34,069 nucleotides of DNA from a virus, in IMG/VR virus record IMGVR_UViG_3300042090_001193, positions 1 through 34,069 of that record; one strand, given 5' to 3'. Below, in pieces: positions 15,015 to 32,517 of the stretch (the stretch's first letter is position 1; each line of letters begins with the position of its first letter). A model generated the notes under the pieces. The model saw only the letters and a program-made list of their open reading frames with translations, was not told the DNA's origin and ran no database searches. Position numbers and translations under genes: made by a program.

Positions 15015-15355
15015 TCGCGCCCGCCGAATTCGTCATCCGCCCCTCCGGGCGCATCGAGGTTATGCTCGGCCAGCACCTGGTCGGCGCCATCGAGCCGTGG
15101 CACGGCGCGCCAAAGATAGAAGCCTATTTCTGGATCACGCTGCCGGTTGACGGCGGCGCAAGCCCGAAATGTCCAGCGACGTCGGTCGCGCTGGCGCGGC
15201 GATTGATCCTGTTGCGGCTCGCGCACTGGTTCGAGGCCGCGGGTCCGTTCTTTCACGCCGTCGGCGAGACGCTGGCGATGCAATCGGAAGAAGAACGCAG
15301 TGCGCTCGAAGCGCCGTCGCTGTTTCCACGAAAAGCAAGAGCACCGGCACGATGA
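15011..15355 (+). CDS. hypothetical protein (114 aa)
   Basis: ATGA-coupled on both sides. Begins MIAPAEFVIRPSGRIEVMLG, probably beta-rich, then an amphipathic helix ARRLILLRLAHWFEAAG. No family recognised. Confidence 0.6.
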   Translation: MIAPAEFVIRPSGRIEVMLGQHLVGAIEPWHGAPKIEAYFWITLPVDGGASPKCPATSVALARRLILLRLAHWFEAAGPFFHAVGETLAMQSEEERSALEAPSLFPRKARAPAR

Positions 15356-17382: not shown

Positions 17383-18000
17383 ATGAACGCCCAAATGAAA
17401 CTCGATCAGCATCCCGGCTTCCGCGAGCTCATCACCTTCGGCAACGGGTTGAATTTCAGGGAGCCGCGGGTATGGCGGGCACTGACGGCGCGGCCATCGA
17501 AAGAACAGAAGGCCGCCGATTGGCTGAAACTCCGGAGCCTTCACGCCTATTGGCCGAATTACAGCAAGGAAATCCGCGCGGCGGGCTTGGCAAACGGCAC
17601 ACATCGGCGCCGCACCGTTTTTTGCTCGATCATTCCCGGCTACCTCTTCATGGCGACGCGCGATGAAGCCAATGAGCCATCATTGCAGGCGTTGGTTGAA
17701 CAGGTGCCAGGCCTGATCGGCTTTGTTCGCGACGGCAGCGGCAATGCGGCGAGCCTGACCAATGACGATATCGAGATCATCCGGCGGATCGAATCCAATG
17801 AAAACCTGCCGCCGGCAAAGAGCCATGTTCACAGGTTCAAGACCGGTGACGACGTCCGCTTTGCCGATGATCTGTTGGGCCGATGGCCGAACGGCAAGAT
17901 CGCCGAACTTGCTGCCGACGGCCGAATCGTGATTGAGGTCGCCTTGTTGGGGCGGATGGTCCCGGTGCGGGCACTCCCGTTTCAGATCGAGGCGATGTAG
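17383..18000 (+). CDS. NusG-family transcription factor (phage paralogue)
   Basis: In 205 aa the NGN domain spans ~25-125 (WRALTARPSKEQKAADWLKL...FCSIIPGYLFMATR, PGLIGFVRDG) and the KOW domain ~150-205 (KTGDDVRF, GKIAELAADGRIVIEVALLG). NusG paralogues bind RNA polymerase and suppress or change termination. An AGGAGG lies 40 bases upstream of ATG 17383, too far to serve it, so the start is not certain. Directly downstream is a structured RNA with a terminator that recurs before terL, which suggests a dedicated antitermination role. Confidence 0.85.
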   Translation: MNAQMKLDQHPGFRELITFGNGLNFREPRVWRALTARPSKEQKAADWLKLRSLHAYWPNYSKEIRAAGLANGTHRRRTVFCSIIPGYLFMATRDEANEPSLQALVEQVPGLIGFVRDGSGNAASLTNDDIEIIRRIESNENLPPAKSHVHRFKTGDDVRFADDLLGRWPNGKIAELAADGRIVIEVALLGRMVPVRALPFQIEAM

Positions 18001-18124
18001 GCAAGGCGTCCAGTTCGATTACCTGCCGGGCGTTCCTCGACGGCGAGCCAAGCGGTTCGCTACATGGCGATGGTGATCGCCTCTTGTGCAGCGTGGGCCG
18101 GGGCCGCAAGCCTCGGCTTTTTTA
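17998..18124 (+). ncRNA. structured RNA element, copy A (3' of the nusG-like gene)
   Basis: Starts at the nusG-like stop codon. Visible helices: GGCAAGG (18000-18006) with CCTGCC (18022-18027) with one bulged A; GCGAGCC/GGTTCGC (18043-18060); GGCGAT/ATCGCC (18066-18081); and terminal GCCGGGGC/GCCTCGGC plus six U (18097-18123). The same set recurs in copy B with near-identical sequence in unpaired and paired parts. No convincing ORF fits both copies. Confidence 0.75.
18097..18123 (+). terminator. intrinsic terminator ending RNA copy A
   Basis: 8-bp GC-rich stem (one G-U pair), 5-nt loop, then TTTTTT. Strong rho-independent form, placed after the nusG-like gene. Confidence 0.85.
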
Positions 18125-18222
18125 TTTGCTGATGATGTAAGCCTATGTCGAACGCGGCCGATCAACCGCCAACGGAGGCTCATCATGCGCTAATGTAAAC
18201 GCCGCAGATCGCGTCACACATC

Positions 18223-18257
18223 GGGCCGTCCGAACGCATGTCGGGCGGCCCTTTTGT
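18223..18257 (+). terminator. second intrinsic terminator before the HNH gene
   Basis: GGGCCGTCCGA (18223-18233) pairs with TCGGGCGGCCC (18241-18251), with one G-U pair, 7-nt loop and TTTTGTT. It is only four bases before the HNH ATG, so the HNH gene must be expressed by readthrough/antitermination or from within. Confidence 0.8.
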
Positions 18258-18260
18258 TAG

Positions 18261-18590
18261 ATGCCAATGAAGCCGCCGACGCACCGCCCACCCAATATGG
18301 GTCAGCGCGTAATCAGAGGACCGCAGAGCGACGATCCCTATTACCATTCGCGCGCCTGGCGTGATCTGCGCGAGGCCTGTCTCAAGCGCGACGGCTATCG
18401 CTGCACCGCTGTCGGCTGCGATACGCCCTATAGGGGACACGGTGGCAGACTGATCGCTGACCATATCGTAGATCGCAGGGCGGGCGGCGCTGATGCGCTC
18501 TTTAACCTGCGCACTCTCTGCATCACTTGCCACGGGAAACGCCATGGGGCGCCCCACCGCTCGCTGATGACACCCCCACGGGGGGATTAA
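18261..18590 (+). CDS. HNH endonuclease (packaging-module type)
   Basis: In 109 aa: YYHSRAWRDLREACLKRDGY, two Cys (CTAVGC), LIADHIVDRRAGG and TLCITCHGKRHG give a canonical HNH with CxxxxC...DH...N...CxxCH. In HK97-like phages this HNH is encoded next to TerS/TerL and assists genome packaging. Here TerS lies 9.7 kb downstream, separated by an island. The start is uncertain: ATG at 18261, 18267 or 18297; none has a good ribosome-binding site because a terminator precedes it. Confidence 0.8.
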   Translation: MPMKPPTHRPPNMGQRVIRGPQSDDPYYHSRAWRDLREACLKRDGYRCTAVGCDTPYRGHGGRLIADHIVDRRAGGADALFNLRTLCITCHGKRHGAPHRSLMTPPRGD

Positions 18591-18672
18591 ATCCTCCCAT
18601 GAGGCGGCCAGTAAGCGCCGGTCCCCCTCCCGCGCATTTTCGCGAAATTCCCAAAACTTTTTTTGCACCCTC

Positions 18673-19257
18673 ATGCCACGCACCGCCAAAACAGCCAACG
18701 CCAAGCCCGCGCTGCCGACCTACAAGGTCGACACGTGGCCGATCAGGCGTCTCAAACGCTATGAGCGCAACGCGCGCACGCATTCCGACAAGCAGGTCGA
18801 GCAGCTGCGCGGATCGTTTCGCAAGTTCGGCCAGGTGTGGCCGATCCTCGTTCGCGAGGACGGCACGATCATCGCGGGGCACGGCCGGCTCGAGGCCGCG
18901 AAAGCCGAGAAGCTCAAGACGGTGCAGGTCATCGTCGCGCATGACTGGACCGAGGAGCAGTGCCGCGCGTTCGGCTTGCTCGACAACAAGGTGGCGCTGA
19001 ATTCGGGATGGGATGAGGAATTGCTGACCGCGGAACTGGTCGGGCTCAAGAAGCTCGGCAGCGATCTCTCTCCGCTCGGGTTCTCGGAGAAGGAGCTCGA
19101 CCGCCTATTGCCGATCGGCGAAGGCGGCAGCGATCCCGATCTCAAGCTGCAGGCGGCGTTCCAGATTCTGATCGAATGCAAGAGCGAGGTCGAGCAGGTC
19201 GAGCTCCTGACGAAATTCCAGAAGGACGGCATCGTGTGCCGGGCGCTGATCGTATGA
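18673..19257 (+). CDS. ParB-like nuclease-fold protein (194 aa)
   Basis: KVDTWPIRRLKRYERNARTH, GQVWPILVREDGTIIAGHGR and LEAAKAEKLKTVQVIVAHDW form a ParB/Srx N-terminal domain of the phage class usually found with DNA-modifying enzymes. The rest is helical (EEQCRAFGLLDNKVALNSGW). It overlaps the next gene by ATGA, so both are made together. Preceded by an AT-rich 60-base stretch including TTTTCGCGAAA, a possible promoter/operator. Confidence 0.8.
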   Translation: MPRTAKTANAKPALPTYKVDTWPIRRLKRYERNARTHSDKQVEQLRGSFRKFGQVWPILVREDGTIIAGHGRLEAAKAEKLKTVQVIVAHDWTEEQCRAFGLLDNKVALNSGWDEELLTAELVGLKKLGSDLSPLGFSEKELDRLLPIGEGGSDPDLKLQAAFQILIECKSEVEQVELLTKFQKDGIVCRALIV

Positions 19258-20378
19258 AGATCGAGATCGAACGCGTCTCCACCATCGTTCGTTCGCCGCG
19301 CGTCATGCAGCTCGACGGCATGTTCGACACGCAGCCGGTTGACCGCGTGGATCTGAAATGGTCGGTCGATCTGCCGATCGAGGAGAAGGACTGGAACGTC
19401 GGGCTGATCGTCGGGCCGTCCGGCTGCGGCAAGTCCACCATCGCGCGGGAGCTTTTCCCCGATGCGTATATCAAAGGGTACGACTGGCCGCTCGACCGTT
19501 CGATCATCGACGGCTTCCCGGCGGAGATGTCCATCAAGGACGTCACGCTGCTGCTGTCGTCGGTTGGGTTCTCCTCGCCGCCGTCCTGGGTGCGGCCGTT
19601 CGGCGTGCTGAGCAACGGGGAGCAATTCCGCGCGACGCTCGCGCGCGCGCTCGCCGAGAAATCCGATCTGTGCGTGTTCGACGAATTCACGTCGGTCGTT
19701 GACCGCACGGTCGGCAAGATCGGCAGCGCCGCGGTCGCCAAGACCGTGCGCCGGCGCAATCAGAAGTTCATCGCGGTCACCTGCCACGACGACGTGATCG
19801 AGTGGCTCGATCCCGATTGGGTCTATTCGCCGGCGGAAAACTCTTTTCAATGGAGGTTGGTTCGGCGACGGCCTCCGATCGAGCTTCAAATCTGCCGCGT
19901 CCATCATTCGGCCTGGCGACTCTTCGCCCACCATCACTATCTGACCGCCTCGCTGTCGAAGTCGGCGTTTTGCTTCTGCGCCTTCATCGACGGCAAGCCC
20001 GTCGCGTTCGACGCCTGGCTGCCGTTCTACGGCAGGTCGCACGGCAAGATCAGGCGCGGCCATCGCACCGTCTGCCTGCCCGACTTTCAGGGCGTCGGTA
20101 TCGGCAACGCGTTGTTCACGCGCATCGCCAGCATGTGGACCGGTTTGGGATTTCGCGCCGCGAGCGGTACCGGGCACCCGGCCGAGATCGCGCATCGCGC
20201 GCGCTCGCCGGACTGGCGGATGACGTCGGCGCCGAAACGCCATCGCCGCGGCAATCACGGTTCGGATCGCACCCGCGCGATTAACCGGCTCGTCGCGTCC
20301 TTCGAGTACCGCGGTCCGAAGATGAATCGCGCCGAAGCCGAGAGGCAGCTGGAAGCATGGGCGATTGCGAACGCATAG
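19254..20378 (+). CDS. ABC-type ATPase fused to a GNAT (Mom-like?) domain
   Basis: In 374 aa the N-terminal ABC ATPase has Walker A GPSGCGKST (54-62), signature-like LSNGE (119-123), Walker B LCVFDE (139-144) and H-loop H178. It has no membrane segments. From ~210 a GNAT fold follows (HHHYLTASLSKSAFCFCAFI, LPDFQGVGIGNALF with the acyl-CoA loop QGVGIG). Phage Mu Mom is a GNAT-like DNA-modifying enzyme, and ParB/ABC/GNAT combinations are known in phages. A DNA-modification role is therefore plausible but inferred. Confidence 0.8.
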   Translation: MKIEIERVSTIVRSPRVMQLDGMFDTQPVDRVDLKWSVDLPIEEKDWNVGLIVGPSGCGKSTIARELFPDAYIKGYDWPLDRSIIDGFPAEMSIKDVTLLLSSVGFSSPPSWVRPFGVLSNGEQFRATLARALAEKSDLCVFDEFTSVVDRTVGKIGSAAVAKTVRRRNQKFIAVTCHDDVIEWLDPDWVYSPAENSFQWRLVRRRPPIELQICRVHHSAWRLFAHHHYLTASLSKSAFCFCAFIDGKPVAFDAWLPFYGRSHGKIRRGHRTVCLPDFQGVGIGNALFTRIASMWTGLGFRAASGTGHPAEIAHRARSPDWRMTSAPKRHRRGNHGSDRTRAINRLVASFEYRGPKMNRAEAERQLEAWAIANA

Positions 20379-20863
20379 GATTTTGCGCGGCGATCTTCGA
20401 CGTGCCGCTGGCCGACTACGGCGTGTCGAGCCGCGGCCGCGGCTTGCTGATCGGTTCGGGCGCCGGCGTCCTGATGGCGGTCATGGATGTCGCGCCGAAG
20501 TTTCGTTTCGCTGTCGATCTGGATCAATGCAGGGGAAGGGAAGACCGGCTGCGCGATTTCGTGCGCGCGCTCGATGGCAACGGACTGGTCGATCTGATCG
20601 CCGTTTGCGGCTGGTTCTCGATCTCCGATCCGAAAGAGATTGCCGGCGCGCTCGCCGGTTTGAGCGCGCCGGTTCTCGTATACGCGGGTGCGGGTTTAGG
20701 ACGAGAGGTATTCGCGAAGCAGATTGTCGTCGATACGCTGGAGGAGTTCCTGCGGCGCGTTAGCCAGCCCCTGGCTGCCGCGCCACGGCACGAAGGGAAC
20801 GGCGCGCCTGTCCCGCAGCACGAGCGCGAACGGCCCCTCGAACCATTTGCTCGGATACTCTGA
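20357..20863 (+). CDS. hypothetical protein following the ABC-GNAT gene (168 aa)
   Basis: Starts 22 bases inside the preceding gene with GGAAGC before ATG. The first ~130 residues look like a genuine alpha/beta protein (GVSSRGRGLLIGSGAGVLMA, DLIAVCGWFSISDPKEIAGA). The last ~45 residues lie antisense to the convergent ASCH gene and are less protein-like. Family unknown; co-expression with ParB/ABC-GNAT is likely. Confidence 0.5.
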   Translation: MGDCERIGFCAAIFDVPLADYGVSSRGRGLLIGSGAGVLMAVMDVAPKFRFAVDLDQCRGREDRLRDFVRALDGNGLVDLIAVCGWFSISDPKEIAGALAGLSAPVLVYAGAGLGREVFAKQIVVDTLEEFLRRVSQPLAAAPRHEGNGAPVPQHERERPLEPFARIL

Positions 20864-21085
20864 GACGCAATCGATGATCTCGGCAGCGCCGATGACGCCG
20901 CCGAAGCGCATCGTCCACGTCTTAGCGAACGCGGGCAGTTCCGCGCTGCTCATCTTTAGCCCGGCGAGAATGAGAACGGGGCCGCGATAGCGCCATCGCT
21001 GGCTTCGATTCTCCACGTCCTTGCTGTCGAACACGATTGCGTGCGCCCAGGGTTGCCGGACGGTCAGTAGCTTGACGATCTTCAT
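20696..21085 (-). CDS. ASCH-domain protein
   Basis: In 129 aa, LLTVRQPWAHAIVFDSKDVE, NRSQRWRYRGPVLILAGLKM and GGVIGAAEIIDC are the classical ASCH (PUA-like) pattern. ASCH domains are proposed RNA-binding or RNA-processing modules. It is the last gene of the leftward accessory operon and overlaps the convergent gene by 168 bases at its 3' end. Confidence 0.85.
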   Translation of the reverse strand: MKIVKLLTVRQPWAHAIVFDSKDVENRSQRWRYRGPVLILAGLKMSSAELPAFAKTWTMRFGGVIGAAEIIDCVSEYPSKWFEGPFALVLRDRRAVPFVPWRGSQGLANAPQELLQRIDDNLLREYLSS

Positions 21086-21956
21086 GCTGGTCTCTTTTGA
21101 ATTCGAGTTTGATCTCTGACTGGGTGGCTACGCAACGCAGATCGTGCTCCATCTGCAAGATATGGGCACGCACAAGAGAAAGTTTATCCGCCGCCAGCTT
21201 CACGCGATCGGGCGACACGCGAAGCGCCGCGACGCATTCGCCGTCCTTGAAGCCCGCCGCCACCATCGAGACGATCGCCGCGATCTTGCTTTCGAGACGC
21301 GTCATCGTCGCGAGGTCTTTCTTCGACGCGACCGGCGCCGTAGCGAAGGCGTCGAGTTGCGCGACGGCGTCGCGAAGCGCGATGCCGGCGTGGCGGACCT
21401 GCTCGACGGTCCGCAGTTTGCCGCTCGCAATGTCCCGCACGATGCGCGTCTGATGCTCGCGCGGCGCAAGCCGCACGGCCCAGCCCATCGAGACAGGAAG
21501 CGTTCCGGCAGCGACCAGGCGCTGCACGTCCGGGGCGAGGTCGAGGAGATCGATGCGATTCTGCACGATCTGCGGCCCGCTCAGTTCGAGCTCCTCGACG
21601 ATGCGCGCGATGCTGTAGTCCCGGTCGATCAGCGAACGATAGGCGTGCGCCTCCTCGATCGGGTTCATGTCGCGCCGTTGCAGATTCTCGACGATGGCTC
21701 GCAACTGCATTTCGGCCTCGTCGATCTCGACGATCTCGGCGCGGATGCTTTTCGCGCCGAGCAGCTGGTGCGCGCGGAAGCGGCACTCGCCCGCGACGAT
21801 CATATAGCGACCGTCCTCGAGCGGCCGAAGCGTGATCGCCTGGATGAGCCCGCGCCGTTTGATCGATGCCGCCAGCCGCTTGATGTAGTCCTCGGGGAAC
21901 GTCTCGCGCGGCTGCTTGGGATTGCGGACGATCTTGTCGAGCGGGATCATCGGCAT
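20922..21956 (-). CDS. ParB/KorB-type DNA-binding protein (344 aa)
   Basis: Residues 1-100 are a full ParB N-terminal domain (IPLDKIVRNPKQPRETFPED, GRYMIVAGECRFRAHQLLGA, IVENLQRRDMNPIEEAHAYR). An HTH follows (YSIARIVEELELSGPQIVQN). Compared with chromosomal ParB the C-terminus is different and helical. The last ~55 residues overlap the ASCH gene in another frame, an unusually long overlap (164 bases); the real C-terminus could be affected by a sequence error. It probably binds specific sites in partition or regulation. Confidence 0.82.
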   Translation of the reverse strand: MPMIPLDKIVRNPKQPRETFPEDYIKRLAASIKRRGLIQAITLRPLEDGRYMIVAGECRFRAHQLLGAKSIRAEIVEIDEAEMQLRAIVENLQRRDMNPIEEAHAYRSLIDRDYSIARIVEELELSGPQIVQNRIDLLDLAPDVQRLVAAGTLPVSMGWAVRLAPREHQTRIVRDIASGKLRTVEQVRHAGIALRDAVAQLDAFATAPVASKKDLATMTRLESKIAAIVSMVAAGFKDGECVAALRVSPDRVKLAADKLSLVRAHILQMEHDLRCVATQSEIKLEFKRDQHEDRQATDRPATLGARNRVRQQGRGESKPAMALSRPRSHSRRAKDEQRGTARVR

Positions 21957-22201
21957 GGCGATGACCCCGCAAGAGCGCGCGCGACGGCGTCGTGGCTCCA
22001 AAGCGCGAACTGGCCTTTGAGCGTGGACCCGAAACCCGCGAGCTCCTCGACGATGACTGGCGCACGCGCATCGTCGCCGAACACGCGATACACGCGAAGC
22101 GGCCGTCCGGCAAAGTGGAACACGGCGCCGGCGGGGATCGTCGCGCGGCGCTCGATGGCGGGAACCGAGAAAAGATCGTGAGGGTGATAGGGCACTCTCA
22201 T
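21947..22201 (-). CDS. hypothetical protein (84 aa)
   Basis: GAVFHFAGRPLRVYRVFGDD and APVIVEELAGFGSTLKGQFA read as a small beta-rich domain. It overlaps the ParB start by 10 bases and begins in an ATGA overlap with the 73-aa gene. No family recognised. Confidence 0.6.
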   Translation of the reverse strand: MRVPYHPHDLFSVPAIERRATIPAGAVFHFAGRPLRVYRVFGDDARAPVIVEELAGFGSTLKGQFALWSHDAVARALAGSSPCR

Positions 22202-22419
22202 GACTCGTCTCCCGCCTTGCGCAGATCGCGCAGCACCACGTCGATGGAAAGCCAGCCGGTTTCTTCCCAGCGGACGGTCGCGGTCGAACTGTGGTGAATG
22301 GCTTCGAGCCGCCCGATATGGCGTTCGTCGGCGACGTCATAGACGCGATCGCCGAGACGTGCGCGCCGCCAGTAATTCTCCGGCAATGCGCGTTCGCGTA
22401 TCTCCGCGCCGGTTTTCAT
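22198..22419 (-). CDS. hypothetical protein (73 aa)
   Basis: Start ATG 22419 has an ideal CACAAGGAGATCATC leader, the same ribosome-binding context as the other hairpin-linked genes. LGDRVYDVADERHIGRLEAI and ATVRWEETGWLSIDV suggest a small SH3-like beta-barrel. Unknown function. Confidence 0.65.
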   Translation of the reverse strand: MKTGAEIRERALPENYWRRARLGDRVYDVADERHIGRLEAIHHSSTATVRWEETGWLSIDVVLRDLRKAGDES

Positions 22420-22679
22420 GATGATCTCCTTGTGGTAGGGTTCGGTTGCCGACACGTGCCGCACTTCCTTGTGGGTGCGGCGCGCGACGGCCACGGGGCG
22501 GGACCTGCAAGTCGCCGCCCCACTTCATTTGCGGCCGAGAGAAAGAACGCGTCCGGCAAGCTCTCAGCGAACGCGATCAGTTCGCGCAGCGAAAACGACG
22601 TGCGTCCCGTCTGCGCGATGAAGCGTTGCATGAGGGAGCGCGTCCAGAACGGGTCGATGGCGAGTTCGCGGCGGGTCAT
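22416..22679 (-). CDS. hypothetical protein (87 aa)
   Basis: The N-terminal 55 residues (MTRRELAIDPFWTRSLMQRF, TSFSLRELIAFAESLPDAFF) read as a real helical domain. The remainder is P/R-rich and contains a UUGCAG stem-loop (copy 5) within its coding region. It overlaps the 73-aa gene by ATGA. Confidence 0.5.
   Translation of the reverse strand: MTRRELAIDPFWTRSLMQRFIAQTGRTSFSLRELIAFAESLPDAFFLSAANEVGRRLAGPAPWPSRAAPTRKCGTCRQPNPTTRRSS
22496..22520 (-). promoter_or_regulatory. UUGCAG-loop hairpin, copy 5
   Basis: Plus-strand GGGCGGGAC (22496-22504), loop CTGCAA (22505-22510), then GTC-G-CCGCCC (22511-22520). The pairing is 9 bp with one bulge. On the mRNA the loop is UUGCAG. It lies inside the 87-aa gene, ~100 bases before the 73-aa gene, with CACAAGGA motifs following. 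It is the weakest of the five copies. Confidence 0.5.
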
Positions 22680-22795
22680 AGCGACACCACGAGCGAGACA
22701 ACGCCAAGCACGGCGATGATGCACGCCGTCAACACGATCACCACGGCGTCGATCAGATAGGGTGAGTAGGCTCGCAAGATTCGGTAGCGAAACAT
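22676..22795 (-). CDS. small membrane protein (39 aa)
   Basis: MFRYRILRAYSPYLIDAVVI continues hydrophobic through LTACIIAVLGVVSLVVSL, one long transmembrane helix. A very good CACACAAGGAGATCGACC leader precedes ATG, and it is headed by hairpin copy 4. It overlaps the 87-aa gene by ATGA. Function unknown. Confidence 0.7.
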   Translation of the reverse strand: MFRYRILRAYSPYLIDAVVIVLTACIIAVLGVVSLVVSL

Positions 22796-22825
22796 GGTCG
22801 ATCTCCTTGTGTGTGAAAAAGACGA

Positions 22826-22849
22826 AGCCCGCCGCTGCAACGGCGGGCT
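22826..22849 (-). promoter_or_regulatory. UUGCAG-loop hairpin, copy 4
   Basis: Plus-strand AGCCCGCCG (22826-22834), loop CTGCAA, CGGCGGGCT (22841-22849): a perfect 9-bp stem. On the mRNA it is followed by TTCGTCTTTTT, so it could also terminate or attenuate after the ParB gene, and then by CACACAAGGAG and the ATG of the 39-aa gene. Confidence 0.8.
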
Positions 22850-22871
22850 CCGTTTCAGATACGCGTGACGT

Positions 22872-24546
22872 TTAACGCTTGCTCTTGCCCTTAGACTTGC
22901 TCTTGCCCTTCGCGCCGGGGCCGTCATAGGCCGTGACGCGAAGCTCTTTCGGCAGCCAGCCCTTCGACGCGACGTTGGCAATCGCGAACTTGGCGATCTC
23001 GGGACGCTTCTTGTCCCGAAGCTTGCGCGCCTCGTCGGCATTGACCGCGGCCGCGATGGCCTCAAGCGTGAGACCCTTCGGCGCGCGGGTGAAATAACCC
23101 TTCGCGTCGAATACCGCCCGGAGCGCGGCGTTCATCACCTTCGGCGAGATCGCATTGGCGATCGTGTCGTAGGCTTTCATGATCGTGTCGGGCGCGGAAC
23201 TATATTTGCTCTCCCAACGGATCTGAGACGCCACGATGCGGGCGAGCAGCGAGGAAAGGCCGGACAGCTTTTCCGTGGTGAGCGCCGTCTTGATCGCCTT
23301 GTGGTACTGCACGCGAAGATCGTCGCGCAGCGCGTTGGTGAGCGTCATGCCGCCCGACTTTTTTGCCGCGGCGCTTTTCTTCTTGACGATCTTGCCGGTG
23401 TCCTCGTCGATCTGGCGAGTCTTGCCTTGCTCGATCGGCATGGTGCGACCCCGATCAATAAAGATCGTACCATCGTGGGCCAGGCGCACGAAGCATCCAG
23501 CCTTCGCCTTTTGCTTCGGGGTTACGGAGCGCGCAAGAATGGCGGCCTTGAGCGCGTCATGTTCCTCGGACGCATTCTCGCTCTGATCGTAATCGATCTC
23601 CTCGTCCTCGACGATGACCCTGAGCTCCTTGAGCCGCTTGATCTCCGCCGGCGTCGGTTTGAACTGCGCCTGCAGCTGACCGTAGCGCCATTGGTCGTTC
23701 GGGATTTCCGCGGTCGCCCACGCCCATCCCTCGTCCTTCACCAGTCTGTCGCAGGTTTCGATAAGCTTCTCCTGCCACATCGTGGCGAGCAAAGCCTCGT
23801 CGGAAACGATGTGATCGCTGCCGAAAAGGTCGCGCGTCACCTTGCCGCCGCGGGCTTCATACGCCTCGATGCCGACGGCATTGAGCGTCTTGCCAGCATC
23901 GCTGACCTTGAGCGCCTCCTTCACGTCGTCGGTGGAGATGCGCCCGCCATTGTAGGCGCTCTTTTTCAGCTTGGCATAGAGCTTCGCCTGGTCCTTCTTG
24001 ACGGGACAGAGCGTGAAGGCTTGCGCCGTCTCCGCTTTGATCTCGCCTTCGAGCCATGCGTCGAGGATCGCGTCGTCGAGGTCGCCGAGTGCAAGCACCT
24101 GGCGTGCGGCTTTTTCAGCGATGCCGAAATGTTCGGCGATCGCCGTCACGTCGAGTGGGGCTTCCTTGTCGGCGTGCAGCTGCGCGAAGGCGCGGTACTG
24201 ATCGACCGGGTGCATGTCCTCGCGGATGACATTGAGCGCGAGGCTGCGTTCGCGGGCTTGCGCGTCGGTCGCGTCGATTACCTTGACGGGGATCGGCGCG
24301 TTCGCGGCCCACTCGCCCGCTTTGACGAGCGCCTGGGCGGCTTCAAGACGCTTGCCGCCGTCGGTGACGGCGAAGCCCTTGCCGTTCGGCCGCACGATCA
24401 AGCGGCTGTTGAATGCCGATGCTTCTGATCGAGGCGACGAACGCGGCCGTCGCGCCGCGACCGGTGCGGCGGACGTTGACCTTGCCGTCGATATGAAGCT
24501 GGTCGAGCGGCAGTGTCGTGGTTGACATGAGTTCTGACTTAGACAT
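22872..24546 (-). pseudogene. large ParB-like protein gene with an apparent frameshift
   Basis: The N-terminus (MSKSELMSTTTLPLDQLHID, ATAAFVASIRSIGIQQPL) lies in one frame. The continuation (IVRPNGKGFAVTDGGKRLEA and ~500 more residues) lies in another. One extra base near 24400-24401 (AA on plus, TT on mRNA) explains the break; removing it gives one 557-aa protein with a ParB fold, an HTH (VTAIAEHFGIAEKAARQVLA) and a basic repeat tail KGKSKSKGKSKR. It could be a real inactivating mutation, a sequence error, or, less likely, a programmed shift. Preceded by hairpin copy 3. Confidence 0.75.
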
Positions 24547-24568
24547 TTGGAAAGTCTCCGTTGTGTGA

Positions 24569-24588
24569 ATCGCGTCTGCAAACGCGAT
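24569..24588 (-). promoter_or_regulatory. UUGCAG-loop hairpin, copy 3
   Basis: Plus-strand ATCGCGT (24569-24575), loop CTGCAA (24576-24581), ACGCGAT (24582-24588): a perfect 7-bp stem. On the mRNA it is followed after one base by CACACAACGGAGA and the ParB ATG. The stem sequence differs wholly from other copies while the loop is identical. Confidence 0.85.
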
Positions 24589-24641
24589 GGGGCGGCGCCC
24601 CGTTGCGCGGCCCCTGTAGGGCCGCGCCGTCGGGAGGTCGC

Positions 24642-24875
24642 TTAGAGCGCGTGAACGTAGAAGCCGTCCGCGCGCTCGACGAGTTCGAGAAGGCGAAACG
24701 CAATGCCGCTTTGAATGGCGGCGTCAATGCGCTGTCGCGTCCAGCCGTAGGGATCAACGCCCGGCCTGCCGCCCATCTGATGAAGCAGCGTGCCGTATTT
24801 CATCGACTCGGTGGCGTCCCATACAATGCAGCGCCGGCGAACTGCATTCGCGTCGGTCGTGTCGAGCGTCGTCAT
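24642..24875 (-). CDS. hypothetical protein (77 aa)
   Basis: ATGA-coupled to the SANT-like gene. RRRCIVWDATESMKYGTLLH and GYGWTRQRI-like text (PYGWTRQRIDAAIQSGIAFR) are visible. The family is not recognised. Confidence 0.6.
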   Translation of the reverse strand: MTTLDTTDANAVRRRCIVWDATESMKYGTLLHQMGGRPGVDPYGWTRQRIDAAIQSGIAFRLLELVERADGFYVHAL

Positions 24876-25702
24876 GTCGAAAGAGCTTCGCCGGCGATGA
24901 TCTGCACGAACGCAAACTTGTCGACCTTGCGAAGATCGATGCGTTCCAGATGATCGAGCAGATAGCGGCGAAGGTCCGCCGGCGTGATCGACCAGTGATC
25001 GCCGCCTTGCTGCGGCAGTCGTTTGGTCTTTCGCTTGGTCGCCTTGAGATCGCCCTGGATGATCTCGCGCGTGACGGTCTTGCTGTCCACGCCGAGAATC
25101 TTCGAGATTGCGGTCGCGCTCAATGTCTCCCGATAGCGCCGGGAGAGATCGAGGCGCTTGGCGCGAACCATGATGGCGGTCGGCGATCGCGAGAAACCGT
25201 GCTCGCGAAATATCTCCGCACATTTATCCACGTCGTGAAGCGGGACCTTCTTCATCAACTCGTTCTCGGCCGCGGTCCACGGCGGTTCCTTCTTGTGCGG
25301 GATCACAAGCCCGAGCGCGATGGCCCGCTTGGTCACCCACCAGCGCGGCACCTTCAATCGATCGGCGAAGGCGTTGCATTCGCCTTTCTTCTTGCCATCG
25401 CCGTTCTGATAGAATTCCCGTAGCGCATCGTCGAAACCTTCCGGCCGCGGGATTTTCTTTCTGCTCAACGTCGAGGTAAGCCCAAGCTTGCCGGCCTGGA
25501 CATAGACGCCGCTCGGCGTGCGATGCTCCGGCAGATGCGCAAGACAGGCGTCCGCGCCGCCATCCGGATAATAGGTCTTGATGACTTCGATCTCGGCGTC
25601 GGTCCAGAACCGTTCGTGACGCACGCCGGGAACGTACGGCGTCGAGAGCCGCGGGTGATGTTCGCGGCGCTTTTTGAAAGATACAGCTGCAAGCCCGCTC
25701 AT
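24872..25702 (-). CDS. SANT/Myb-like DNA-binding protein (276 aa)
   Basis: HERFWTDAEIEVIKTYYPDG and PWTAAENELMKKVPLHDVDK are two SANT/Myb-like Trp-containing HTH repeats. Each is followed by a short R-rich helix. A third HTH follows (LSATAISKILGVDSKTVTRE) with ITPADLRRYLLDHLERIDLR at the end. Probably a sequence-specific DNA-binding protein. The ATG overlaps the HerA stop (25699-25702). Confidence 0.7.
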   Translation of the reverse strand: MSGLAAVSFKKRREHHPRLSTPYVPGVRHERFWTDAEIEVIKTYYPDGGADACLAHLPEHRTPSGVYVQAGKLGLTSTLSRKKIPRPEGFDDALREFYQNGDGKKKGECNAFADRLKVPRWWVTKRAIALGLVIPHKKEPPWTAAENELMKKVPLHDVDKCAEIFREHGFSRSPTAIMVRAKRLDLSRRYRETLSATAISKILGVDSKTVTREIIQGDLKATKRKTKRLPQQGGDHWSITPADLRRYLLDHLERIDLRKVDKFAFVQIIAGEALST

Positions 25703-26964
25703 GACTGCATTCCTTTCTCGATGCGCACGGCGCGCTTGTCGCCGTCGCCGGAGAATTCGAGAACGCCGTATTGATCGAGCAGCGCGAGCGCGGCGGCGAT
25801 CTCGCTCTTGGTGCGGTTCAGATGCTTGCCGAGATCGTCAACGCGCGCGCCCTCCGGAGCGAGCTTGGCGAGCGCGCCCCATATCCGGCCCGCATCGGCA
25901 AACCCCGGCTCGCGGATGAACTGCCGAATCTGACGAAGCGCGAGCGGCCGGGTGTTGTCGGCCATCGTTTGCTGATCCGCCGCGGTCGCGGCAAGGAGCG
26001 CGTCGAGATCGAGCAGACGCGCGGCGTCGCCCGGCGCACGTGCCGCCGGCGCTTTCAATTCCGGTGCGGCGCCGACGTGAAACGTCTCGACGGGTCCCAC
26101 TTTGAGAACGGCGGGGCTGGTCGAGAACGCGGGACCAACCACGACGAAATCTCCCGGCGCGAGCATGGGCAGGCGATCGAAGCCCTTGCGCGCGTCCCAA
26201 CCGATGGTCTCGGCCGCGCGGCGAATGTCGAGATCGAGCGTGTTGAGCCCGACCATAAAATTGAGCGCCTCGGAAACGACGGACTTCGCCAGCCGCGCGA
26301 GCCGCTGTGTCGCAAGAATGCCCGCGAGTCCGCGTTTTCTGCCGCGGCTCATGAGATCGGTGACCGTGGCGATCGACGCCTTGCGCACGGAGGTCGCTTC
26401 GGTGTAGCCGCCGAACGGCGCGAACAGATGCGCTTCGTCGATGGCGACGATGGTCGGGTGCCAATGCTCGCGCGGTGCCGCGATCAGTGCCGAGACGAAA
26501 GAGGTCATCGCCTTCATCTGATCGTCGCGGTCGAGCTCGGAAAGATCGAGAACGACGGATGCGCGATGCTCGCGCGCCCGGCCGGCGGCAAGGGCGAGCG
26601 TCGCCATGTCGAGGCGGTGGCCCTCGAGGTGAAGCAAGCCCAGCTTGTCGGCGAGTTGCTTAAACTCGCCTTCGGGATCGATCACGATCTGCTGCACTTG
26701 ATCGTGCGTCTGTTCGATCAGCCGGCGCAATGTCCACGACTTGCCCGCGCCGGATGCTCCCTGAATGAGCATGCGACCCTCGATCAGCTTGCCGAGATCG
26801 ATGCCGATCTGCATGCCGCTCTCGGCGGTGCCGATATGAACGTCGCTGGCGCGAATGCCGGGGAACTTGACGACGGTCTGCACCGCACTCTTGGCGGCGC
26901 CGGCGAAGCGGCGATCACCCAGGCTGGCAGCCATGCGATCTTCCGGTGAAAGTGGCTTTCTCAT
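25699..26964 (-). CDS. HerA/FtsK-like (DUF87) ATPase
   Basis: In 421 aa: Walker A GASGAGKS (69-76), VIDPEGEF soon after, Walker B TIVAIDEAHLF (171-181), and sensor-like ILATQRLARLAKSV. This is the HerA/DUF87 DNA translocase pattern. The C-terminal 100 residues contain a winged helix (LGKHLNRTKSEIAAALALLD). HerA-type pumps translocate dsDNA and occur in repair, conjugation and antiphage systems. Start ATG 26964 has GAGGAGA upstream and hairpin copy 2 ahead of that. Confidence 0.82.
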   Translation of the reverse strand: MRKPLSPEDRMAASLGDRRFAGAAKSAVQTVVKFPGIRASDVHIGTAESGMQIGIDLGKLIEGRMLIQGASGAGKSWTLRRLIEQTHDQVQQIVIDPEGEFKQLADKLGLLHLEGHRLDMATLALAAGRAREHRASVVLDLSELDRDDQMKAMTSFVSALIAAPREHWHPTIVAIDEAHLFAPFGGYTEATSVRKASIATVTDLMSRGRKRGLAGILATQRLARLAKSVVSEALNFMVGLNTLDLDIRRAAETIGWDARKGFDRLPMLAPGDFVVVGPAFSTSPAVLKVGPVETFHVGAAPELKAPAARAPGDAARLLDLDALLAATAADQQTMADNTRPLALRQIRQFIREPGFADAGRIWGALAKLAPEGARVDDLGKHLNRTKSEIAAALALLDQYGVLEFSGDGDKRAVRIEKGMQS

Positions 26965-26983
26965 TTTCAGTCTCCTCGTGTTG

Positions 26984-26999
26984 TGCGGCTGCAACCGCA
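26984..26999 (-). promoter_or_regulatory. UUGCAG-loop hairpin, copy 2
   Basis: Plus-strand TGCGG (26984-26988), loop CTGCAA (26989-26994), CCGCA (26995-26999). On the mRNA it is followed by CAACACGAGGAGACTG and the HerA ATG. This is the shortest stem of the set. Confidence 0.8.
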
Positions 27000-27055
27000 T
27001 TGTGAACTGAGTCGGATCAGATAAGTTTGTTTGGTCGAATTGTTCACCAAACAAT

Positions 27056-27658
27056 TCACGCGTAGCTGCTCCAATATCGCTCGCCGCTGCCAAGCCAGGC
27101 ATTGCGGACGCTATCAATGCGCACGCTGCCATCGGCGCGCGCTCGACGGACGATTGCGACTCCGGTTTCGTCGCCGTCGTAACGCGGCGAAAGATATTTT
27201 CCGGGGATCGGCTTGCATTTGCCGCTCATGAATCCGGTTTCGCTCCGCTCTTGCGCAAGTTCGCGGAGCTCGACGGTGTGCGGGCCGACGATGCGCGTCA
27301 CCTCGAAATATTCCACGTTGGTCTGATCGTAGCCCCACGAGGTGTGCAGGATCGCGCCGATGACAAGCGGATGCGGCGCGCTGCGCTCGGTTTTCTTTTT
27401 GGCGCGGTACTCGGCATGTGATCGCCGCCGTGCGAGAAATTCCGCGATGCAGGCGGCGCGGCGTTCCTCGGTCTTGAAGGTGTAGTTCCAGTCGGGCTTG
27501 TTCGCCTTGCCGTGAAAGGCAATTGCGCCAAGCGCGCGCTGGCCGTTGAGCTTTAGCCCCGGCACGTCATAGAGAAAGACGGCGGCGTCGGTATCGCCGC
27601 AGTCAAATGGTGTGGCATTCTTCGGGACATAAAAGTCGCGCGGGAAAGTGTGACGCAT
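27056..27658 (-). CDS. hypothetical protein (200 aa), first gene of the leftward accessory operon
   Basis: MRHTFPRDFYVPKNATPFDC, FKTEERRAACIAEFLARRRS and HPLVIGAILHTSWGYDQTNV are visible. The C-terminal half looks beta-rich (TSWGYDQTNVEYFEVTRIVG resembles small phage domains of the DUF-type 'WGYEQTN' kind). Start ATG 27658 has CACACAAGGAGAACGAA upstream. Frame extension further upstream is basic and unlikely to be coding. Function unknown. Confidence 0.65.
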   Translation of the reverse strand: MRHTFPRDFYVPKNATPFDCGDTDAAVFLYDVPGLKLNGQRALGAIAFHGKANKPDWNYTFKTEERRAACIAEFLARRRSHAEYRAKKKTERSAPHPLVIGAILHTSWGYDQTNVEYFEVTRIVGPHTVELRELAQERSETGFMSGKCKPIPGKYLSPRYDGDETGVAIVRRARADGSVRIDSVRNAWLGSGERYWSSYA

Positions 27659-27676
27659 TTCGTTCTCCTTGTGTGT

Positions 27677-27696
27677 TTGCTCGCTGCAATGAGCAA
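27677..27696 (-). promoter_or_regulatory. UUGCAG-loop hairpin, copy 1
   Basis: Plus-strand TTGCTC (27677-27682), loop GCTGCAAT, GAGCAA (27691-27696). On the mRNA the 6-nt UUGCAG core sits in an 8-nt loop. It is followed by ACACACAAGGAGA and the ATG of the 200-aa gene. Confidence 0.8.
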
Positions 27697-28265
27697 GGTG
27701 CAGGATCGCACCCCTGCGCCGCGGCTCTGACTTCGCGGCGCTAGGCTGAGATCCTTCCCGAACTGTTCGCGGCATCGGTGACTGCGGCTTGCGTTTGTCT
27801 CTGTGACTGCGTGCAGGCGTGTCGGTTGCGGCGAGAGTTCGGGCTCTCAGAATGAAGAATCCGGTTGCCTTCTTCGGTTCGATCTGTCGGACAGCGTTCG
27901 CGGTCTCGCTACTGCGGCCGGGATTATGTTCGCGTTCGGACGGCGCACTCGCAAGCGCGCGGGTCTTATTTGCTTCTGTCTGAGACCGGGGCGGGTGCGG
28001 CTGTAGGTTCGTGAACTTTCGCCGCTGAGTATCTTCGCTCCGTTCGGGCTTTTTTCGGATTCGATTTTCAAACAGCGGATCGCTTTGCGATCTTTTTTTC
28101 TTGATGGACGTTCTGCTTCTCAGCGCATGTCGGCGTCGGGGAGAAACGAGTCGATCTTTTTGCAACGTCGCTTGATCGATTGATGCTGATTCTAAGGAAT
28201 TCGGGGCGGAAGCCTATGGGGACTAAATTCCCCTGCCCCAAAAGCAGCTTCGGGAGTGCTCGAAA
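27697..28265. other. gene-poor region between the divergent accessory operon and terS
   Basis: About 570 bases without a convincing ORF on either strand; open frames here are R/S/P-rich. It should contain the promoter of the leftward operon and perhaps one for terS. GAAGAA/TTCTTC (10-nt loop) near 27853 and the terminator-like hairpin at 28078 are the only clear structures. A small RNA ending at 28099 is possible. Confidence 0.4.
28078..28099 (+). terminator. intrinsic terminator-like hairpin
   Basis: GATCGC-TTT-GCGATC followed by seven T. Short stem but a clear U-run. A rightward transcript would have to start inside the 27.7-28.0 kb gap or come from antisense transcription of the accessory operon. 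Confidence 0.5.
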
Positions 28266-28874
28266 ATGACGCGCGGGAGACGCGCTTTACCTGACGCGGT
28301 AAAGGCGCTGAAGGGCAATCCGGGGAAACGTCGTCTAGCACTCGAAAAGACGACGGGCGCGCGTAGCGCGCGCGTAGCGCCCCCAAAAGCATTCACCGCG
28401 GAGCCCCCGGACTATCTGACTCAGGAGGGCGAGAAAGCCGCGTTCGTCGAGATACTCAAAGCGATGCCGCTCAATGTCGCGCGCAAGAGCGACATTCACG
28501 CCATCGCACGCTGGGCGGCCTGGCTCTACATCTGGATCGATGCCAAGAAGCGCCTCGACGGTCACGTGCATTACTACGAGAACAAGTCGAAGCACGGCAC
28601 GTTCCTGCGCGAGCATCCGATCTCGAAACGCATGCACCAGGCGGAGGCGCATCTGATCTCGCTGGAAGATCGTCTCGGGCTTAACATCGTGGCGCGCAAC
28701 AATATCGTGCACCGGCTGTTCAACATGCCCGGACCGCCGCCGCGGCTGTTCGATGATCCGGAGCCGGAGGACGGCAAGCCACTTCCGATCGACGACGCGC
28801 CCGAGCCCGAGGAGCTGTCGTCGCCGCTCAATTTTCTGAGCGACGCCAGCAAGCCCGCGAGCAAGCCGAATTGA
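28266..28874 (+). CDS. terS: terminase small subunit, P27 family
   Basis: In 202 aa the N-terminal ALKGNPGKRRL is the start motif of P27-type TerS. The core is helical (VARKSDIHAIARWAAWLYIW). C-terminal EDRLGLNIVARNNIVHRLFN is also typical. The acidic, proline-rich tail EPEDGKPLPIDDAPEPEELS probably contacts TerL. It recognises phage DNA for packaging. GGGAG lies 10 bases before ATG. Confidence 0.85.
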   Translation: MTRGRRALPDAVKALKGNPGKRRLALEKTTGARSARVAPPKAFTAEPPDYLTQEGEKAAFVEILKAMPLNVARKSDIHAIARWAAWLYIWIDAKKRLDGHVHYYENKSKHGTFLREHPISKRMHQAEAHLISLEDRLGLNIVARNNIVHRLFNMPGPPPRLFDDPEPEDGKPLPIDDAPEPEELSSPLNFLSDASKPASKPN

Positions 28875-28892
28875 CAGCGGCCCGCGAATCAT

Positions 28893-28964
28893 ATCGAGGT
28901 CGCCGCGTTGGGGCGGGTGATGACGGTGGTGAGAGTTCTCCCCGTTTCAGATCGGGCGATCTAG
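28893..28964 (+). pseudogene. relic of a NusG C-terminal (KOW) coding end
   Basis: This frame reads IEVAALGRVMTVVRVLPVSD and stops in TAG, matching the last residues of the phage NusG paralogue (IEVALLGRMVPVRALPFQIE). DNA is likewise alignable over the last ~80 bases. No upstream NGN or start is present because terS ends at 28874. It is therefore a fragment carried along with RNA copy B. Confidence 0.65.
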
Positions 28965-29090
28965 GCAAGGCGTCCTTCGGATTACCTGCCGAAAGTCTCT
29001 CGACGGCGAACCGCAACGGTTCGTTACAAATGGCGATCGATGATCGCCTGTAGTGCGGCGTGAGCCGGGGCGGGAGCCTCGGCTTTTTTG
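28962..29090 (+). ncRNA. structured RNA element, copy B (between terS and terL)
   Basis: Same order of elements as copy A: GGCAAGG/CCTGCC (28964-28970, 28985-28990), CGAACCG/CGGTTCG (29007-29023), GGCGATC/GATCGCC (29032-29048) and terminal GCCGGGGC/GCCTCGGC plus six U (29064-29089). Changes between copies keep the helices: a G-U in copy A is A-U here, and the second hairpin gains a pair. It ends 14 bases before the TerL ATG. Confidence 0.78.
29064..29089 (+). terminator. intrinsic terminator upstream of terL
   Basis: 8-bp stem with GGGA loop and TTTTTT, directly in front of terL. If active it would stop most transcription from terS into the late genes unless suppressed. Confidence 0.8.
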
Positions 29091-29103
29091 TTGCCTAGAG
29101 GTA

Positions 29104-30675
29104 ATGGCGTCCCCGTATTATTTCGACAAGCGCGTCGCCGATGCCGCTGTCGAGTTCTTTCCCCGCTATCTGTGCTTCGTCGATGGCGAGTGGGCCGGCA
29201 AGCCCTTTCATCTGTCGAAGTGGCAGGCGCATCACGTCCGGCAGATTTTCGGCTGGCGCAAACGCGCGAACGGTTTTCGCCGCTATCGCTTCGTGCGCGG
29301 CTGGGTGCCGCGCAAGAACGGCAAATCGGAATTGTGCGCGGGGCTCGGTCATCTACTCTGCATCGGCGACGGCGAACCTGGCGCGCAGGTCTATTGCCAC
29401 GCATTGGTCGGCGACCAGGCCGAGGTCGTCTATGATAAGGCGGCGCGCATGGTCGCGCTGTCGCAGCCGCTCTCGCAGCTCTACGAGGTCACCAAGACTG
29501 GCATGCTCTGCTCGGCGTCGATGGCGTGCTATCGCGCGCTGTCCGGCGAAGCCTACGGGAAGCACGGTCTGTCGCCGCACGCCAATATCGGCGACGAAGC
29601 CCACGCCTGGAAGAACGGCAATCTTCACACCTTCCTGATCCAGGGCATGGGCGCCCGGCGCCAGCCGATGGACATCACGATCTCGACCGCCGGCGAGATC
29701 AAGACCTACGGTCACGAACTTTATCTCCAGTCGAAGGCGATCCTCGACGATCCGAGCCTCGATCCCGAAACTTATGTTTTCATCTACGAGGCGGACAAGG
29801 ACGACGATTGGACCGACCGCAGGGTCTGGAAGAAAGCCAATCCGAATCTCGGCATCTCGCTGAAGCGGGAATTCCTCGAAGCCGAATGCCGGCGCGCGCA
29901 GACGACGCCGCGGCTCGAAAACGATTTCAAGCGGTATCATCTCAATCTGTGGGTCGAGCAGGCGAAGCGCTGGTTTCCGATGCGGCGCTGGGCCGACAAC
30001 ACGACGCGGCCAGGCGACAAGGATTACTGGCGCCGGCTGCCCGGCGAGATGCTCGGCCGCAAATGCTTCGGCGGTCTCGACCTCGGATCGACCAACGACA
30101 TCACCTGCAAGATTTTGGTGTTTCCGCCCGAGGCGGAAGGCCAGCGCACCGTGCTCATGCCGGAGTTCTGGGTGCCGGAGGAAACGGTCGATGCGCGCGA
30201 CTCGCCGCGCACGCCGTATCGCAAGTGGGTGGACGAGGGCGCACTCCTCACCACTCCCGGCAACGTGACGGATTATGATTTCATCGAACAGCGCGTGATC
30301 GAGGACGCGCCCAAATATCAGATCCAGAAGCTCGGCTACGATCCGTGGAATGCGACGCAGGTTGCGCTCCATCTGCAGGACGAAGGTTGCCCGATGGTCG
30401 AGTTTCGCCAGGGCTTCAATTCGATGGCGGCGCCGTCGAAGGAAATGGAGCGGCTGTTTCTCGCGGGGCTCCTCGAGCACGGCAATCATCCGATCCTCGA
30501 ATGGATGTTCGGCAACGCGACCTACCGCAAGGACCCCGCCGGCAACATCAAGCCCGACAAGGAACGCGCGGCCGAGAAGATCGACGGCGTTGTCGCCTCC
30601 ATCATGGGCGTCGGGCTCGTCAACGCGGAGCCAGCCAACAGCGGTCCCCGAATTATTCTGCTCGACAGCGTGTGA
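29104..30675 (+). CDS. terL: terminase large subunit, HK97-like
   Basis: In 523 aa the ATPase has Walker A PRKNGKSE (69-76) and Walker B NIGDEAHAW (161-169). The nuclease domain begins LDLGSTNDIT at 325-334. It pumps DNA into the prohead and cuts concatemers with TerS and the HNH protein. Length and motifs are standard for the Terminase_1 family. Confidence 0.95.
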   Translation: MASPYYFDKRVADAAVEFFPRYLCFVDGEWAGKPFHLSKWQAHHVRQIFGWRKRANGFRRYRFVRGWVPRKNGKSELCAGLGHLLCIGDGEPGAQVYCHALVGDQAEVVYDKAARMVALSQPLSQLYEVTKTGMLCSASMACYRALSGEAYGKHGLSPHANIGDEAHAWKNGNLHTFLIQGMGARRQPMDITISTAGEIKTYGHELYLQSKAILDDPSLDPETYVFIYEADKDDDWTDRRVWKKANPNLGISLKREFLEAECRRAQTTPRLENDFKRYHLNLWVEQAKRWFPMRRWADNTTRPGDKDYWRRLPGEMLGRKCFGGLDLGSTNDITCKILVFPPEAEGQRTVLMPEFWVPEETVDARDSPRTPYRKWVDEGALLTTPGNVTDYDFIEQRVIEDAPKYQIQKLGYDPWNATQVALHLQDEGCPMVEFRQGFNSMAAPSKEMERLFLAGLLEHGNHPILEWMFGNATYRKDPAGNIKPDKERAAEKIDGVVASIMGVGLVNAEPANSGPRIILLDSV

Positions 30676-30683
30676 GGCCTGAC

Positions 30684-30887
30684 ATGAAAAAACTGGCGAG
30701 CGGACTCTTCGTGGCGATCGGCGCGGTATCGCGCGGCGTGCCAACGGTACTCCGCGATGGCGCGGGCCTGGCTGGCGCGGCGGCGATTGCTTACGGCCTC
30801 TATATGATCTCGCCGCCTTACGGCTATATCGGCGGCGGCATCCTCTTGTTGGCTGGCGCGACGCTAACGGCACTGCCGAAAAGCTAA
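30684..30887 (+). CDS. small membrane protein (67 aa)
   Basis: Two hydrophobic segments, AGLAGAAAIAYGLYMI and YIGGGILLLAGATLTAL, in a small protein between terL and portal. Such proteins are frequent at this place in HK97-like phages; function unknown. TGAGG is the nearest ribosome-binding sequence. Confidence 0.65.
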   Translation: MKKLASGLFVAIGAVSRGVPTVLRDGAGLAGAAAIAYGLYMISPPYGYIGGGILLLAGATLTALPKS

Positions 30888-30892
30888 CGCCC

Positions 30893-32278
30893 GTGGCGGG
30901 ACTGTTCGGCGCAATAGCGCAGGGAGGCGCGCGGCTCACCCGCTCGACCGACACCACGGCCGATGCGCTGCTGTGGGGCGATCAGCTGTGGTCGGTGCCA
31001 TCGGCGGCTGGCGTCGAGATCAACCAGCAGACCGCGCTCGGTGCGGCGGCCGTCATGGCGTGCGTGATGATGTTGGCGGAGGACGTCGCCAAGCTGCCGG
31101 TGTGGCTGGCGACTAAAACCGCCAGCGACAAGATCACGAGGGTCACTAATCATCCGCTTGCCTGTTTGTTCGAGGAACCGAACGAATGGCAGGACTGGAT
31201 GGAATTCTGCGAGATGCTGCAGGTCGGGCTCGTCCTGCGCGGCAATGGCATCGCGGTCATCATTCGCGATTATCGCGGCAAGCCGGTCAAGCTCGTTCCG
31301 GTCAATCCAGACCGCGTCGCGCTGTGGGAAGCGCAGAGCGGCGAACTGTTCTACCGGATCACCCCGTTCGGCCTGCACGAAATGGCGCAGCTGAAGGACG
31401 AGCCGTTCCTCATTCCGGCCGAGGATGTCTTTCATCTGCGCGGCGCATCGGTGAACGGTCTCATGGGCGCATCGCGCATCGCGCTGGCGCGAGACGCGAT
31501 CGGTCTGACAATCGCCCAGGAGCGCGTCGCCGCGCAGTGGATCGGTGCCGGCTCGAAGCCAAGCGGCGCGCTGGTCGCGGATGAAAAACTCGACACGCCC
31601 ACCATCGAGCGCCTCAAGGCGAACTGGAAGGAATTGAACAGCGGGCTTGCGAACGCGGGTCGGGCCGCGATCCTCGAAGCCGGATTGAAATGGGTGCCGT
31701 TCGCGATCTCGGCGCAGGAACTGGAATTCATCGCGTCGCGGCAATTCCAGCTGCAGGAGATCGCGCGCATCTTCCGCATCCCGCCGCACATGATCGGCGA
31801 GCTGTCGCGCTCGACCAACAACAACATCGTCCAGCAGTCGCAGGAATACATCAACTATACCCTTTCCGGTTACACCAGCCGGTGGAAGGGAAAGCTGCGC
31901 AAGACCTTCGGGCTGGCGAAGGAGAATATCTACGTCGTTCACGATTTCTCCGAGATCGGCCGCGGCGACATTCTCTCGCGCTACAATGCCTACCGCATCG
32001 GCATCATGTCCGGCTTCCTCAAGCCGAACGAAGCGCGCGTTGATGATGATCGCGATCCCGATCCGGAAGGCGATCATCTGTTGCAGCCGATGAACATGGC
32101 CGAGATGGGTAGCCAGTCGGGCGGCACGTCGGAAGGCGGGCGTCCGGAGGACGGCACGATCAAGGCCAAGCTTTCCGAGATCGAGGGTCGCGTCACCAAG
32201 CTCGAAAGCATTCCACAACGCTTCCTGCCGGCGCGGCATCGCTTCACGCGCGGCGGCTTGATGGTGCCGGCCGCATGA
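30893..32278 (+). CDS. portal protein, HK97 family
   Basis: In 461 aa, AAVMACVMMLAEDVAKLPVW, LACLFEEPNEWQDWMEF, IFRIPPHMIGELSRSTNNNI and QQSQEYINYTLSGYTSRWKG are the HK97-type portal blocks. It forms the dodecameric ring through which DNA enters the head. GTG start at 30893, five bases after the previous stop. Confidence 0.95.
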   Translation: MAGLFGAIAQGGARLTRSTDTTADALLWGDQLWSVPSAAGVEINQQTALGAAAVMACVMMLAEDVAKLPVWLATKTASDKITRVTNHPLACLFEEPNEWQDWMEFCEMLQVGLVLRGNGIAVIIRDYRGKPVKLVPVNPDRVALWEAQSGELFYRITPFGLHEMAQLKDEPFLIPAEDVFHLRGASVNGLMGASRIALARDAIGLTIAQERVAAQWIGAGSKPSGALVADEKLDTPTIERLKANWKELNSGLANAGRAAILEAGLKWVPFAISAQELEFIASRQFQLQEIARIFRIPPHMIGELSRSTNNNIVQQSQEYINYTLSGYTSRWKGKLRKTFGLAKENIYVVHDFSEIGRGDILSRYNAYRIGIMSGFLKPNEARVDDDRDPDPEGDHLLQPMNMAEMGSQSGGTSEGGRPEDGTIKAKLSEIEGRVTKLESIPQRFLPARHRFTRGGLMVPAA

Positions 32279-32517
32279 CGCTTGCCGCCGATGTCGCAAC
32301 ACGCCGGAGCCGGAGCGCCAAACAGCGTTGGGCGCGCATGACGCCAGCGCAGCGCAAGACGCAATGCGCGGCGATCAGACAGGGTGTCACGAGGGCTTAT
32401 GCGCAAGGCCGCGGCCGCAAGCTGCCGTTGACCGACGAGGAGCGTAAATTTTACCTGAAGCTCCGCCGTGAACTTGGCACGGAAGCGGCTCACGCGTATT
32501 TGGCGACGAAGCGATGA
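32275..32517 (+). CDS. small basic protein (80 aa)
   Basis: ATGA-coupled to portal. SAKQRWARMTPAQRKTQCAA resembles NUMOD-like DNA-binding helices, followed by LPLTDEERKFYLKLRRELGT. It could be a short DNA-binding or head-assembly factor. No clear family. Confidence 0.55.
   Translation: MTLAADVATRRSRSAKQRWARMTPAQRKTQCAAIRQGVTRAYAQGRGRKLPLTDEERKFYLKLRRELGTEAAHAYLATKR

Follow-up and report, generated by a model that had tools for sequence, protein, structure and literature searches.

The window, the whole stretch of DNA that was analysed, is a single viral contig of 34,069 bases. A nusG-like gene is followed by an HNH gene, a ParB-like gene and a minus-strand block, and from position 28266 the plus strand carries terS, terL and a portal gene. 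One copy of a repeat lies at the end of the nusG-like gene, and the other fills most of the interval between terS and terL (Table 1). Several other features of the window were recorded. An open reading frame at 19176-20378, which adjoins the ParB-like gene, has ABC-type ATPase motifs followed by a GNAT acetyltransferase-like domain. A diversity-generating retroelement (DGR) at 5372-8001 comprises an Mtd-like target gene and a reverse transcriptase ending at 8001; its repeats are located at 6146-6272 (in the Mtd-like target) and 6718-6844 (87%), and the Phage_DGR RNA of Rfam was found at 6853-6996. A terminator-like hairpin with a long T run is present on the plus strand at 28077-28093, approximately 170 nt ahead of terS, with no evident plus-strand gene end nearby.

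Table 1. Positions of the features discussed (in the window, except for the last row).
Feature	Position	Strand	Remarks
nusG-like gene, 205 aa	17383..18000	+	NGN domain and KOW end; probable phage antiterminator
Copy 1, coding part	17923..17997	+	last ~25 codons of the nusG-like gene; from alignment
Copy 1, RNA part	17998..18126	+	possible H1 18000-18006/18022-18027
Copy 1, H2	18042-18049/18054-18061	+	
Copy 1, H3	18066-18071/18076-18081	+	terminator next
Copy 1, intrinsic terminator	18095..18119	+	stem-loop, then T-run; fold z −2.53
Second terminator-like hairpin	18223..18251	+	3′ of copy 1, ahead of the HNH gene
terS	28266..28874	+	P27-type small terminase
Inserted segment	28875..29103	+	terS stop to terL start; missing from nearest relatives
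Copy 2, nusG-like tail remnant	28883..28961	+	no start, TAG stop still in frame; from alignment
Copy 2, RNA part	28962..29092	+	possible H1 28964-28970/28985-28990
Copy 2, H2	29005-29013/29017-29025	+	
Copy 2, H3	29032-29038/29042-29048	+	terminator next
Copy 2, intrinsic terminator	29062..29085	+	fold z −3.77
terL	29104..30675	+	first gene past the copy 2 terminator; start placed by alignment with relatives
Leader copies in L093	3405-3474, 5147-5219, 5550-5616, 6399-6469, 6711-6775	−	TerL relative, separate contig

The product of the nusG-like gene matched Pfam NusG PF02357 (34.7 bits, cut-off 22.2) and PHROG 6386, transcription antiterminator (2.5e-10), and aligned with residues 55-178 of E. 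coli NusG, through the KOW. With its NGN domain and KOW end, it belongs to the NusG family in the broad sense. It remained under the NCBIfam cut-offs for NusG, RfaH, UpxY, and LoaP, scoring 18.3 bits against a cut-off of 125 on the LoaP model NF033641 and 28.6 against 144.5 bits on the RfaH model.

Extent, folding and divergence of the repeat

The preliminary description placed a duplicated structured RNA at 17998-18124 and 28962-29090. The duplication is present there, and its similarity is far above chance: the full local alignment (17902-18126 versus 28865-29092) scored 194, whereas 100 dinucleotide-shuffled pairs reached no more than 36, and blastn with one copy recovered the other at an E value of about 4e-39. 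The first ~20 columns of this alignment overlap the end of terS and may represent a short chance match, and the safe extent of the two copies is ~205 nt (17923-18126 versus 28883-29092). The repeat begins not at the RNA, as originally proposed, but ~75 nt upstream, within the nusG-like coding sequence. Its unit consists of the last ~25 nusG-like codons, an RNA of ~95 nt that forms two robust hairpins, and a strong intrinsic terminator. In copy 2 the nusG tail no longer codes; it reads IEVAALGRVMTVVRVLPVSDRAI-stop there and IEVALLGRMVPVRALPFQIEAM-stop in the gene itself (copy 1). Within the RNA part the net effect of the indels is a frame shift, in agreement with the earlier statement that the copies share no peptide. 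The overall identity of the copies was 79%; single-stranded blocks such as TAGGCAAGGCGTCC were unchanged, and the identical strings first listed were all found in both copies. Gaps aside, the identity was 88% in the RNA part and 82% in the nusG tail, a difference that was not significant (p=0.29). The repeat fits the description of a duplicated 3′ portion of the nusG-like transcription unit (gene tail, 3′ UTR, and terminator) better than that of a stand-alone RNA gene; the earlier reading was thus partly supported, with the duplication and the conserved hairpins upheld.

H2, H3, and the terminator were present in the minimum-energy folds of both copies. The remaining one of the four helices initially described as shared, H1 (GGC-A-AGG/CCTGCC), was missing from that of copy 1. 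The terminators alone folded better than their shuffles (z of −2.53 for copy 1 and −3.77 for copy 2), and the RNA minus the terminator had no convincing folding excess over shuffles (−0.42 and −1.58, respectively). In the aligned copies, 3 of 59 paired positions were changed, whereas 18 of 72 unpaired positions were (p=0.0018), and when the 21 substitutions were placed at random, all pairs stayed intact with a probability of 0.001 with H1 and 0.005 without it; these values apply to helices that were partly picked after conservation had been seen. All three changes within pairs were one-sided (GC/GU, GU/AU, and GU/AU) and none broke a pair, one terminator pair was lost through a gap, and there were no two-sided pair changes between the two copies. 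The assertion that the differences preserve pairing thus holds, but thinly. These results support the structure modestly and the terminator well.

Homologue searches and the terS-terL interval in relatives

In Rfam 15, no family reached the gathering threshold in either copy, which bears out the statement that no known family was recognised; permissive scans gave at best 18.5 versus 48 bits, and the only family found in a scan of the window, RF03022, lay elsewhere than the copies. No homologue of the cassette was detected in phages, plasmids, or viral contigs, the last of these searched with three specific patterns and via TerL and NusG. A covariance model found no copy of the cassette in any of the TerL relatives and no homologue in 686 alphaproteobacterial genomes. 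The best match of the model in these two sets (27 bits) was within a coding gene, the next (22.6 bits) was a terminator beside a sigma-factor gene, and the examined matches of 15-27 bits were coding genes or unrelated terminators. The exact 14-mer TAGGCAAGGCGTCC had 77 matches in viral contigs, none extending into the remaining repeat, and these were taken as chance. The pattern GGCAAGGCGTCC..CCTGCC had 32 matches with nothing past the pattern except for two weak ones (L207 and L198), for which the search itself introduces a bias; zero matches in viral contigs were obtained with patterns based on H2/H3 and on the stretch between H3 and the terminator. A HEARO/omega RNA upstream of the HNH gene was also considered and rejected: there was no Rfam match, and relatives carry HNH without the RNA. 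Relatives of the nusG-like gene in phages (L145-L153 and L221-L226) and in genomes had no copy of the cassette, and those examined in genomes (L169-L171) had no phage neighbours in the stretch read.

Related phage modules (L083 and L149/G003) likewise have HNH upstream of related terS and terL genes, and in G003 a nusG-like gene is directly ahead of HNH; unlike the window, these modules are without the RNA, the terminator, and a second copy. The spacing between terS and terL was about 7 nt (L080 and L083) and 55 nt (L082) in the closest TerL relatives, and its median was 55 nt in the 58 relatives with both genes. The larger gaps of L086 and L119 hold small ORFs, not RNA. Among 26 relatives checked, a five-T run in this gap was found only in L119 and L137. 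Because terS and terL are 7-55 nt apart in the nearest relatives and none of these has the cassette, copy 2 is most simply explained as a derived insertion in this phage lineage.

Repeats of other kinds were observed in TerL relatives. L093 (IMGVR_UViG_3300005529_000093) has five copies of a ~75-nt leader just 5′ of minus-strand start codons. Each is laid out as GAGCGCAGCACAGA, a stem, TCGATGGTGCGC..GCACC, and a Shine-Dalgarno-like ACAAGGAGAC, and the stem varies in sequence among the copies yet pairs, with 4 pairs showing two-sided changes. This leader, which had no Rfam match and was absent from the window and the other loci, looks like a shared translational control leader. L091/L154 contain a 132-nt pair (4125-4256 and 4681-4812) that is 90% identical, 556 nt apart, and spaced similarly to the DGR repeats of the window; L154 comes from the MAG of an alphaproteobacterium. 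In L142, repeats of ~40 nt are dispersed in either orientation (1573-1611, 6292-6331, and 15172-15210, inverted near 15938 and 19808).

The repeat is a genuine, unusual, and testable candidate from one genome, without covariation, and is best recorded as a copied cassette of a nusG 3′ end and a terminator with a possible regulatory RNA rather than as a new RNA family.

Possible roles of the copy between terS and terL

The terminator of copy 2 has a canonical form and is the sole plus-strand terminator-like site among those listed in 29000-34069. Its U-run ends about 12 nt 5′ of the terL start, and therefore terL transcripts started upstream must read through it. There is no space for a promoter between this terminator and terL, and a scan of 29000-34069 gave no sigma70-like promoter. 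Promoters of alphaproteobacterial phages may, however, deviate from the sigma70 consensus, and one inside terL is possible. Late transcripts must pass the copy 2 terminator if terL contains no internal promoter and no promoter of another type is present.

Our leading reading, held tentatively, is that copy 2 is a conditional attenuator of the late operon, which the NusG-like protein of the phage might open by a LoaP-like logic. Transcripts started upstream of terS would make terS and mostly halt at the copy 2 terminator. The NusG-like protein, when present, would join the polymerase during elongation, possibly through recognition of the hairpin RNA in the manner of LoaP, and transcription would then continue past the terminator to terL, portal, and the structural genes. 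The copy 1 cassette at the end of nusG could provide autoregulation or simply terminate the unit. A LoaP-like logic is the most economical reading because LoaP, a NusG paralogue, passes intrinsic terminators via a leader hairpin, which it requires ahead of them (PMC12691694). In favor of such an attenuator, the same phage encodes a NusG-family protein whose gene ends in the same RNA and terminator, a canonical terminator stands before terL, the insert is missing in the nearest relatives, and the paired positions are spared. Against it, no homologue was found and there is no covariation, the RNA part is no better conserved than the nusG tail, and the fold is ordinary without the terminator.

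The LoaP system with its dfn/mln leader hairpins in Bacillus velezensis likewise combines a NusG-family protein, a hairpin 5′ of an intrinsic terminator, and a long operon (PMC12691694), whereas here one RNA copy belongs to the 3′ UTR of the gene for the factor itself and the other lies between the two terminase genes. Intrinsic terminators are present behind the RNA at both copies and may be read through when the factor is present. The UNCG hairpin is not common to the copies: CTTCGG occurs at 28975 in copy 2 only, with GTTCGA in copy 1, and its frequency in the window is near chance. With the protein far under the cut-off as well, the cassette is by these tests not a LoaP system. RfaH is also a specialised NusG paralogue governing chosen operons (PMC7819879), but its signal is a DNA element, ops, and it acts inefficiently at intrinsic terminators; the window has 31 ops-like sites versus 32 expected, no excess, and by this comparison the cassette is not RfaH/ops. 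Phage HK022 has two put RNAs of ~70 nt with two stem-loops ahead of terminators, and thus, as here, two related hairpin RNAs per phage linked to terminators (PMC9378689). In contrast to the NusG-dependent opening considered here, put works without a phage protein; it lies downstream of early promoters, and no sequence relation to it was found. In its action the cassette may resemble LoaP or a put RNA while being a member of neither class.

Almost as probable as the NusG-gated attenuator is a fixed one that recombination left behind. In this explanation, also held tentatively, recombination moved a gene tail and its terminator into the terS-terL gap, either between phages or at the short GCCGAA-TTG shared by the terS end and nusG; terL would then be lowered by a fixed amount relative to terS with no dedicated factor, and the hairpins would be passengers. 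It fits a ~205-nt repeat that has diverged about evenly, the now non-coding nusG tail included, that starts near the short match at the terS stop, whose RNA upstream of the terminator folds no better than shuffles, and that no relative has kept. It accounts less well for substitutions that avoid paired positions and break none, and for single-stranded blocks such as TAGGCAAGGCGTCC that are identical despite the overall divergence. That both copies are small RNA genes, each releasing a stable 3′-UTR-derived sRNA that ends at the terminator and acts in trans on host or phage mRNAs, is improbable: the compact hairpins with a terminator, the conserved single-stranded stretches, and the presence of two copies would suit it, but no promoter was found directly ahead of either copy, there is no Rfam sRNA match, and candidate targets are not in evidence. 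More improbable still is a protein-free antitermination RNA whose two hairpins act directly on RNA polymerase against the adjacent terminator, like HK022 put, since two adjacent hairpins just 5′ of a terminator in two copies per phage are set against put's position downstream of early promoters, ordinary folding outside the terminator, and the lack of a sequence relation.

A bolder form of the NusG-gated reading is possible but doubtful: in an alphaproteobacterial phage, a NusG paralogue would have its own RNA-terminator signal, once after its own gene and again in the terS-terL gap, and the packaging and structural genes would be switched on by processive antitermination. If true, it would connect a NusG paralogue carried by a phage with a defined RNA target and with the switching of late genes, and the targets of phage NusG-like proteins would become directly testable by a simple reporter. 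If copy 2 is merely a copied terminator, it would be a small example of phage regulatory parts moving.
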